Source: Closterium sp. NIES-65
Taxonomy: Eukaryota > Streptophyta > Zygnematophyceae > Desmidiales > Closteriaceae
Reading direction: 5' to 3'
Length of the DNA stretch: 64,000 bases
Assembly: GCA_948144175.1 (NCBI GenBank)
Contig: CANXME010002663.1
Location: 1 to 64,000, forward strand
Shown here: positions 2,128-49,100 of the stretch, piece after piece
Position numbering within the stretch: the first letter of the stretch is position 1
Layout of the letters: each line of letters opens with the position of its first letter
Position numbers and translations under genes: made by a program
Notes under the pieces: generated by a model
Database searches by the model: none
What the model saw: the letters and a program-made list of their open reading frames with translations, nothing else
Told to the model about the DNA's origin: nothing

Positions 2128-2751
2128 GTTGGCGCAGCTTGTTCTGCTCCCCCGTGCGCTTCACTGCCGGCGTGATAAGTCGATCTTTGGGTCGACTCAA
2201 AAATCGGCGCTGCTTGTTCTGCTCCCCCGTGTACTTCACTGTCGGCTCTTGCAATTTCTCGCCCTCGCGCGTTATCTCCCCCTCGGCTAGCTTTCGCGCT
2301 CGCTCGGCCCGTCTGCTCCCCTGCTCGCTCAATCTATCAACTGCTACCCAGCGTCGACTGTAACCGTGTGCTTTTCGGTCAACAAGATACGTTGCTTCGA
2401 CGGTTGGGAGAAGCAACTTATAACGGGGATTGGTACTACCAATTAGGCGTTCGAGTATCGACGGGCCAGCGGGACGGACGGGCCAGCAGGAGGAACGGGT
2501 ATGGATGGACTGTCGTGAAGGGTAGGGTGTGGAGCGAAGTGTGAAGTTGGAAAGAGGAGTGGGGCGCGGGGTAGAGGGGTTTGCGAAACTAGCGAAGGCA
2601 ACGAAAAGCCAGCGCAAACGCCTCGCAACATGTTACAATCAAATGACTTACACGTTTTGCCAACAGATAACTCAGTTAAGAAAATGGTTAAGTGATGCAT
2701 TGCAAACCTAAATACATGCCGCATTAAGACCCCAAAACTCCTACAAATAAA
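2128..2751. other. Intergenic: MRT4 upstream region / PEC 3' flank
   Basis: This stretch separates the PEC stop codon (2752-2754) from the MRT4 start codon (2127). It holds one palindrome between duplicated arms (2131-2249) and otherwise AT-richer unique sequence. I see no convincing ORF or RNA gene. Confidence 0.6.
2131..2249. repeat. Intronic-palindrome family member P1 with flanking direct repeat
   Basis: The imperfect palindrome at 2181-2206 is centred on GTCGAC with CTTTGG/CTCAAAA arms. It lies between two copies of a 44-bp sequence, 2131-2174 and 2206-2249, both containing GCTTGTTCTGCTCCCCCGTG. This is just upstream of the MRT4 start codon. Confidence 0.8.
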
Positions 2752-46161: not shown

Positions 46162-49100
46162 CTAGGCGGCGGACTTGCCCTTCTTCTTCTGCAGCTTCTT
46201 CATGTAAAACTCCAGCTCCTTGCCCTCCAAAATGTACCTGCCATGCACCACCACACAGCAAACTCCACATGTCAGCGGCGAGACTAAAATACCTACTTTT
46301 GAGACGTCTCAAAAGATTCTTCATGTAGAACTCCAGCTCCTTGCCCTCCAAAATGTACCTGCCCGTCCAACCCACACACCAACCCCATATGTCAGCAGCA
46401 AGACTATACAATATCTACCACTGTATGTAGCAGGTGTGCTTGTAGCGGGTAGGCAGCAAGGAGCGTGTGCTAAAGCAGAAGTGCACGGAGGCAATAGGAG
46501 GGGCAAAGCAGAGCAGATAGGGCACGGGCTGCAGGTGCACAAGTGGCTGAGAGAGGGACTGACTGACCCGTCGCAGCGGCCGCACTGGCCGGGGCGGGAG
46601 GCGATGCAGGCGTAGAGGCGGCCGGCGGCGAACTGGTCCTCAAGGTGCGGGTCGAGCTTGTGCGACGCCAGGCGCTGCTCGTGCTTGCGCTTCACGTGCC
46701 CACTCACCTTCTTCACCTCCTCTCCCGCCTCGCCCTCCGCCTTCTCCTCCTCGCCCTGCCGTGCACCACCGGGTGGGGGGATGGATGGAGGGTCCGTGGG
46801 ATGAGTGGGGGAGGGATGAGAGATGATCGGTGGGAGGGAGGGATAAGCGGCCGAAGCGAGGAGGTATCAGCAGCGCTAGGGTCGTCTTCCTGATTTGGCA
46901 CGCGAGTGCACTCAATAACTCTTGGCATGCGCGCATCAACCACCGCTTCCCCTCCCCGCAAACCCTCCCCTCGCGCCAACCTTCCCCTCTCAGATAACCT
47001 AACTCCCCCCTTAGCCTGCCGTTCCGCAATGACCCACACCACTCCTCGCCGCCCGGCCCTCAGCCCCTTCGTCGCCCATCTGCTAACCCCTTCGTCGCCC
47101 ATCTGCTAACCCCTTCGTCGCCCATCTGCTAACCCCTTCGTCGCCCATCTGCTAACCCCTTCGTCGCCCATCTGCTAACCCCTTCGTCGCCCATCTGCTA
47201 ACCCCTTCGTCGCCCATCTGCTAACCCCTTCGTCGCCCATCTGCTAACCCCTTCGTCGCCCATCTGCTAACCCCTTCGTCGCCCATCTGCTAACCCCTTC
47301 GTCGCCAGTTCCTTCACCGCTTTCCCAGCCCTCCCTCACCTCCTCCTCAACCTTCACCTCCCCACGCGCCCCACCTTCTCGCCCCTCACCACCACCCTCG
47401 TTTAATACCGACCACTCGTACCGTTCCTTAACCCCGCACCCTCTCGCCTCTCACCACCCTCACTCCCCCCCCCCCCGTCTCGCACCTCCTTCTTGCCGGC
47501 CTTGGACTTCTTCTTGCCGAGGTCCACGCCGTAGTGCTGCTGGTACCACTGCCGGAACGGCGCGGCGTCGACCTGAATGATGGCGTTCTTCACGAGCGTC
47601 TGCGTGCGGACCAGCTCGTTGTTGCTCGCGTTGTACGCCACGTCCAGGATGCGCGTCTTGCGCGTCACCGACTCGCTGCCCCACGCGTAGTTGCCCGTGT
47701 CCAGGCGCAGCGCGCGGAACTTGTAGTTCCCGCCGCGCACGCGGATCCGGCGCACCGTCTTGTGACTGCTGAGCTTTGTGTTGGCCGCCTGCCGACCCAA
47801 GTCATACCTGGCGATACGCGGGCGCGCGTTCGCGACGTGGAAAAGAGGGCAGGTTGGGGAAAGGGAGAAGGGGACAGAGAGAGGGGCCAGGGGGGGAGAA
47901 GGAAGGTTAGATAGGGGATGGGAGGGGGAGGCAAAGATGGGAAGGGTTAGTTGGGTGGGACGGGCAAGGAGAGAGGTAGGGAATGAAAGAGGACGATGGG
48001 GAGGGGGGAAATGGGAAGCAGGAGACAGAACAATGAAAAAGAGGTGAAGGGATCCGCGTGCGACACGCTCACTGGGTGCACCATTGACCCCTGTTCGAAC
48101 TGTGCGACGGCTGCGAATCGCACGCATGGACCTATACGACTACAAAGACTATCCATCCGAACCAGCGGCATCCAAATTCGAATCCCAAAGTTCCTTCCGC
48201 GACCTGAGGAATACCTTAATCCAATCCAACCTCCTCCCCATCATCACTGGCAGGTTCACCAACCAACTCCTCCATCTATACTCCTCCATCCTTTCTCCCT
48301 CCCTCCCTCATCCTCCCTACTCGCTAGGACACAAAGGTGGGTACCCTGTCGGTCGCAATTAGCGGGACACAGAACAAGCTCTATGGGAGACCGACCGCCT
48401 TGGACCAGTCAGTATGGGATAAGGGCGACCAGCAGTCCGGGGAATCAACGCTCTTTTCAGACCGAATCTCTTAACTCAGTCCGTATGGCACTCTAAAATC
48501 AAGGCTCTGGCCAACATCACACAATCGCGCAAAGAGCGCTTTTCCTCACCAGTCCAAAAATCGCGCATGAAATACTGTGACGACACGCGAAAAAACTTAA
48601 TACTAATTTGAGACGTTGCGACGCGTGAGTAGGGGGGGACGGGGGGGGGGAAGAGGGGGGAAGAGAGGGGAAGGGGGGGGGAGAGGGGAAGAGGGGGGAA
48701 GAGGGGGGAAGAGAGGGGAGGGGAGGGGGGAGAAGGGGGGAGTGAGACAGCGGAGGAGAAGCTTACTTGCGCTTCTTGTGCCACGGCTTCTTCTTTCCTC
48801 CTGTTGCCCGTCGCTTGTGCAGCGAATCACGTGAGATACCTGCCGCGCATGAGAGCACGCGCGAGGTCGCAGAAAGACGGAGAGACCGGAAAGGGGAACG
48901 GGGAGACGGGAAAGCGCGGCACACGAGGGAGGGGAGACAGGAACAGCGGGGAGAGACACATGAGGGAGCGAGATAAGGTGAGCCAACTTAGAACAAGGGC
49001 TCAAACATTCTCTGCGACGGCAAGGCGTCACGGCCCTGTGAGAAGCCCACGGCTTATATAGTCCCCTAGATTCATGTTACGCGAATGGCCGCCTCAAACC

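Follow-up and report, generated by a model that had tools for sequence, protein, structure and literature searches.

Short palindromes with a constant half-arm between direct copies in Closterium genes: candidate footprints of a micro-insertion

A family of short palindromes with the constant half-arm TTTTGAG is present in the genes of a stretch of Closterium DNA. We found 13 members, ten of which lie between close direct copies of the neighbouring sequence. The family is far more frequent than expected, its four-base centre varies but usually stays self-complementary and its arms decay freely. We lean, by a little better than even, towards reading the palindromes as footprints of a dispersed, non-coding micro-insertion that was joined into staggered genic breaks, with fill-in duplicating the target. 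The evidence comes from one 64-kb window, i.e. the whole stretch of DNA that was analysed.

We took the window as nuclear DNA of a unicellular zygnematophycean alga. For a copia polyprotein at 23808-27917 (minus strand) the best among the matches listed were from Closterium strains such as NIES-53, -54, -64 and -65. A homologue search with the PPR open reading frame gave two matches, neither under the name Closterium. The Pfam scan covered the minus-strand frames of 1-19998 and 39301-49299 as well as ten open reading frames. Exon borders and the wider gene extents were read from the frames by eye and are presumed wherever they are used below. The following genes and polymerase are referred to:

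~0.9-1.5 kb, minus strand: L10 domain, partial pieces (Pfam)
12.5-12.9 kb, minus strand: strongest stretches of the Castor/Pollux pieces (Pfam)
33186-34280: a further retrotransposon polymerase
42.6-43.7 kb, minus strand: PPR repeats (Pfam)
46.6-47.8 kb, minus strand: ribosomal protein eS8 (Pfam)

The L10-domain gene (882-1530) gave three partial L10 matches and has near by a 136-bp tandem repeat (100% matches at 1495-1833), which is likely an exon duplication within the gene. In the Castor/Pollux gene presumed exon-intron units are repeated at 7627-9133 and 11999-12902 with roughly 77-86% identity. Two LTR-like pairs, 23019/30340 and 50227/57344, enclose copia domains. The pair spanning 23019-30472 is identical over 133 bp (100%) and the pair spanning 50227-57746 shows 97% identity over 403 bp, so that both elements are probably young. 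A satellite with 7.6 copies of a 181-bp unit occupies 62588-63959.

Allowing up to 3 mismatches, the motif TTTTGAG-N4-CTCAAAA has 17 matches in the window compared to 1.37 expected from 100 shuffles, the largest of which reached 5. With at most 2 mismatches the true arm gave 11 matches, while 104 permuted arms averaged 0.08 with a maximum of 2. Relaxing the limit to 4 mismatches added 11 matches, none of them at the threshold for flanking copies, and the family is thus essentially closed at 3 mismatches. All 17 matches are located at 2.1-19.8 kb or 39.2-46.4 kb and none lies between the LTR pairs, which bears out the initial annotation in that it saw none inside the transposons. The absence from the retrotransposon blocks may reflect the youth of the blocks and not a choice of target. 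We set aside four matches as probable chance occurrences: 8726 and 8890 fall in a repeated region that is presumably exonic, 39737 belongs to an array and 39284 shows no duplication. The remaining 13 members include all 12 sites of the initial annotation, each recovered at its position, and one that was absent from that list (40033-40050):

2181..2206: palindrome, centre TCGA; direct copies 2131-2171 and 2206-2246, 4 substitutions in 41
3592..3611: perfect palindrome CTTTTGAGTCGACTCAAAAG; copies 3546-3591 and 3613-3660
5102..5123: palindrome, centre TCGA, one pair of bases mismatched; flanked by 12-14 bp copies (5088-5101, 5122-5135)
7288..7317: decayed palindrome, centre AATT; flanks below the duplication threshold
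13943..13966: palindrome GGCTTTTGAGGCGCCTCAGAAGCC; ~23-25 bp copies at distances of 0 and 1 base
19480..19511: perfect 32-bp palindrome, longest member, centre TCGA; within a tandemly duplicated unit
19731..19765: copy of the 19480 palindrome with a 4-bp insertion; carried in the second unit
40033..40050: palindrome, centre TCGA, 3 arm mismatches; copies 39948-40000 and 40075-40127 (at least 53 bp)
40262..40281: palindrome GTTTTGAGGAGCCTCAAAAC; copies 40225-40259 and 40282-40311
41869..41887: decayed palindrome, centre GCGC; copies 41828-41864 and 41888-41924
43946..43969: palindrome, centre AATT; flanked by ~16-20 bp copies (43926-43945, 43976-43995)
44361..44378: palindrome, centre TCGA; copies 44328-44360 and 44415-44447
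46296..46315: perfect palindrome CTTTTGAGACGTCTCAAAAG; copies 46196-46295 and 46317-46417

The members at 19480 and 19731 represent a single palindrome that was duplicated with the unit around it (offset 251 bp), and the member at 5102 sits at the end of a 50-bp tandem array. A separate tandem array with a 27-bp unit at 39323-39755 contains TGAGGCGCCTA, which resembles the core of the palindrome family; its final unit has the right arm CTCAAAG, and the array is possibly an amplified family member. The longer form GACTTTTGAGN4CTCAAAAGTC had no match in the genome-contig and viral-contig collections searched. The slightly longer motif CTTTTGAGN4CTCAAAAG was found in 26 viral contigs (IMG/VR), some of them near-duplicates and 22 of them distinct, which served as chance copies. 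No RNA family scored above its Rfam thresholds anywhere in the window, which speaks against a known RNA family as the identity of the palindromes. Peptides encoded by the palindrome were not found by pattern in 122 proteins, a weak test as nearly all of these are copia polyproteins.

Without edge rules, the similarity of the flanks did not separate the members from random sites because arrays dominate this measure. We used edge-anchored alignments instead, with a score of at least 20 and edges within 12 bases (or within 4). Ten of the 13 members were flanked within 12 bases (2181, 3592, 5102, 13943, 40033, 40262, 41869, 43946, 44361 and 46296) and 9 within 4; the members at 7288, 19480 and 19731 have no close copies, although looser, offset copies without close edges lie near the last two. 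For 693 random intervals placed 250-2500 bp away the rates were 26.6% within 12 bases and 23.8% within 4, and after exclusion of run-through repeats 12.8% and 10.8%. The binomial probabilities are 2e-7 (within 12) and 1e-6 (within 4) against the cleaned rates and 2e-4 and 7e-4 against the raw rates. Outside arrays 12 of 16 matches of the true arm were flanked compared to 13 of 121 for the permuted arms (Fisher p 1.1e-7). Two of these 12, 8726 and 8890, are probably flanked by chance; leaving them out gives 10 of 14, with the permuted-arm control not pruned likewise. By the same score none of the 26 viral chance copies was flanked, though 2 had a short flank. Among 19 other palindromes of the window (excluding one at 13922-13939) 3 were flanked, all three in tandem-repeat or exon-duplicated stretches.

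Two-copy duplications are common in this DNA, with 71 non-overlapping pairs outside arrays, of which 9 hold a member and 62 lack the family palindrome. Flanking copies alone are therefore not rare. For two-copy duplications with a spacer of 16-45 bp in the gene stretches, 6 of 15 hold a member, and none of the 8-base words in the 29 palindrome-free spacers examined is shared by more than 3 of them. A palindrome outside the family, TACGCGCGCGTA (43749-43760), occupies part of the spacer between copies of ~92-97 bp at 43614-43866, which are apparently exon sequence of the PPR gene. Single sites are unremarkable: between 0.9 and 7.5% of 530 non-array random sites, and 6-21% of all 700 random sites, score as well as the ten flanked members. 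The excess belongs to the whole set and not to any single site.

The initial annotation had placed the palindrome exactly between two direct copies in about nine cases. The count holds up, since 9 of its 12 sites pass the edge-anchored score of 20. "Exactly" is too strong: both edges lie within 2 bases in 5 of the 10 flanked members, and at least one edge does in 9 of 10. The left/right gaps are 0/1 for 13943, 46296 and 3592, 0/0 for 5102, 2/0 for 40262 (borders set by eye), 4/0 for 41869, 9/0 for 2181, 0/10 for 43946 (10-13 on the right) and 0/36 for 44361 (0/7 in a gapped alignment). For 40033 the ungapped alignment leaves 32 bases on the left and 24 on the right. Copy lengths, proposed as 14 to about 110 bp, were measured as 12-14 bp (5102) up to 100-101 bp (46296), at most about five times the length of the insert. 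In the ten members 13 of 140 arm positions depart from the consensus and 36 of 393 positions differ between the copies, several borders being set by hand. Most are hence presumably old, diverged sequences and not adapter or chimera junctions. These figures lend no support to a functional constraint on the palindrome. Arm decay does not convincingly track copy divergence (Spearman 0.60, p 0.066 for substitutions; 0.20, p 0.58 with gaps).

We regard the symmetry of the centre as the most informative result. For each match the left half was set against the complement of a right half, taken either from the same match or from other members. Across all 17 matches the centre agreed at 29 of 34 positions within a member compared to 42% between members, and none of 20000 permutations was as high. 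The arms agreed at 79.8% both within and between members (outer positions p 0.06). For the 12 best matches (the 17 less 8726, 8890, 39284, 39737 and the duplicate 19737) the centre agreed at 23 of 24 positions within members and 48% between, and the arms at 83.3% and 83.8%; the outer positions showed 55.6% within compared to 41.4% between (p 0.03). Centres were self-complementary in 9 of 11 matches with at most 2 mismatches and in 12 of 16 with at most 3, as proposed initially, but only in 11 of 121 matches of permuted arms and 5 of 26 viral chance copies. As the centre covaries and the arms do not, the units were symmetrical at birth and the arms mutated independently afterwards; the centres TCGA, GCGC, AATT and ACGT look self-complementary from the outset. 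Correction of a quasi-palindrome after insertion was rejected as the cause of the symmetrical centres, since a member's own arms are no more alike than the arms of different members. The pattern suggests several palindromic sources, or units each assembled from two identical halves.

By eye, the units appear inside longer introns or a leader. All members had been assigned to introns; this seems right for most, while the 2181 palindrome seems to fall within the L10-domain gene's 5' leader and several duplications probably include exon sequence. Judged from the reading frames, some duplications would span splice sites and exon ends and leave the insert within the intron. The copies at 40033 presumably hold a splice acceptor and an exon start, those at 44361 an exon end and a splice donor, and both copies at 3592 carry a possible exon end and GT donor. 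Where the duplication carries a splice site, the extra copy can be spliced away together with the palindrome. Of the stretch copied at 46296, ~59 bp are presumed to be the end of the last eS8 intron, and 41 bp belong to the last coding exon. This exon starts near 46236, and the 24 residues it encodes match PDB chains of plant eS8. The eS8 insert, the palindrome plus one base, is 21 bp long, i.e. seven codons without a frameshift, which weakens the argument that palindrome and duplication arrived together. An insert within the eS8 exon alone, which would add seven codons to a conserved tail, is disfavoured.

From these observations we infer mobility, an order of events, an enzyme and a kind of source. 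The unit would be a self-complementary DNA of ~18-32 bp with the constant half-arm and AGTTGACTTTTGAG as its longest form. Genic DNA would be nicked on both strands 12 to ~100 bases apart, the palindromic unit would bridge the two broken ends, and the long single-stranded overhangs would be filled in, leaving one copy of the target on each side. Symmetry at birth together with several different centres points either to two half-units joined head-to-head, each ending in four self-complementary bases, or to several palindromic source lineages. A unit this small cannot hold a gene, so that an enzyme, if any, would be supplied elsewhere; neither an enzyme nor a source of the unit was found in the window. 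Surviving insertions would be those whose duplication leaves the exon and splice site intact.

The initial annotation had offered an inserted unit and a hairpin that seeds tandem duplication side by side, and the window favours the former. If the palindrome came first, an existing TTTTGAG palindrome would extrude a hairpin and stall the fork, and template switching would copy the neighbouring stretch to the other side, gathering duplications at the palindrome edges. Palindromes are classic obstacles to replication, two-copy duplications are numerous in these genes, one member (7288) has no duplication and two (19480 and 19731) no close one, and the eS8 palindrome could have started in the intron beside the copied stretch. 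The dispersal of one arm sequence is left unexplained by this route, however, and neither other palindromes (3 of 19 flanked compared to 10 of 13 members) nor the 26 chance copies in viral contigs gathered duplications in the same way. Two template jumps would presumably also be needed to place one palindrome between two copies. We find it less economical than insertion and on the whole unlikely, though still a serious contender: because the eS8 insert would not shift the frame and no more than half of the members have two tight edges, we marked insertion down slightly and raised the hairpin.

It is improbable in our view, though conceivable, that end joining at staggered breaks took up an abundant short self-complementary nucleic acid which is not itself mobile. 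Variable copy length and symmetrical variants would suit a dimerised oligonucleotide, but fillers are usually locally templated, we know of no source for the arm and the Rfam search supplied none. According to the available text of PMC8355091, small tandem duplications are known at staggered breaks, which such uptake shares. That the motif met duplications by chance in a genome rich in them, or that the assembly or library produced an artefact, is very improbable. About 1 in 4 random nearby intervals are flanked and 1 in 9 cleanly; the permuted-arm and random-interval controls nevertheless disagree with chance, and the arm and copy differences speak against an artefact. The insertion of a unit is favoured by the close edges, the centre that was symmetrical at birth, the dispersal of one arm sequence and the duplications that carry splice sites.

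To our knowledge no named element combines such palindromes with long, variable duplications. No report of such elements appeared, by titles and abstract starts, among the matches listed from open-licence literature, and in the paper on Closterium genome size (PMC10407611) the main text, as far as available, contains no word beginning with "palindrom". Small tandem duplications (<100 bp) result from the fill-in and joining of staggered breaks, and in the accessible part of PMC8355091 the stretch between paired nicks is directly duplicated. A direct duplication likewise adjoins the junction in 10 of our 13 members. No common inserted sequence at the junction is described there, whereas the Closterium sites share a symmetrical insert. 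Yeast mitochondrial GC clusters (GC42) and double-hairpin elements, the latter only named in the excerpt of PMC4478555, are likewise tiny palindromic non-coding units spread across one genome, with flanking direct repeats and inferred mobility. The clusters are GC-rich, looped and flanked by AG or ACT (PMC4478555, same excerpt); the Closterium units are nuclear, with AT-rich arms, a self-complementary centre and copies of 12 to ~101 bp in place of 2-3 base repeats. Bacterial REP elements with RAYT transposases are, in the summaries available, palindromic repeats of 20-40 bp proposed to be non-autonomous, but they are bacterial and extragenic. We know of no long target duplication for REP elements, and no RAYT transposase appeared among the Pfam matches of the ten open reading frames and minus-strand stretches scanned. 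MITEs and derivatives reduced to terminal inverted repeats are also non-coding and carry inverted repeats, and in Closterium the whole unit is an inverted repeat. Target duplications of MITEs have a fixed short length by family, whereas the copies here range from 12-14 to ~101 bp over ten members. Introners and intron gain by tandem duplication resemble our sites in that splice sites are recruited from the duplicated target or the intron-exon boundary is crossed (PMC9860276 and PMC4974935, in the portions available). Introners are whole introns, some families having target repeats of 3-9 bp (PMC9860276, same portion), but the Closterium unit measures ~20 bp.

A bolder version of micro-insertion would be a nuclear mobile unit consisting of a bare ~20-bp self-complementary word at tens of thousands of genic sites, a figure extrapolated from the roughly dozen sites in about 25 kb of genes. 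Its target duplications would be up to several times longer than the unit, which would form head-to-head at each insertion as two identical tails join through a self-complementary four-base end. We consider this version doubtful and offer it with corresponding reserve. Published assemblies exist for several Closterium strains; PMC10407611 names NIES-64, NIES-65, NIES-4550, NIES-4552, NIES-53 and NIES-54. Should the family prove real across the genome, it would rank with the smallest families of inserted repeats in a nuclear genome and would preserve a natural record of how staggered breaks are repaired in a close relative of land plants. It would also point to a low-harm route to intron growth, as one copy remains intact where the duplication takes in the splice site and the edge of the exon.
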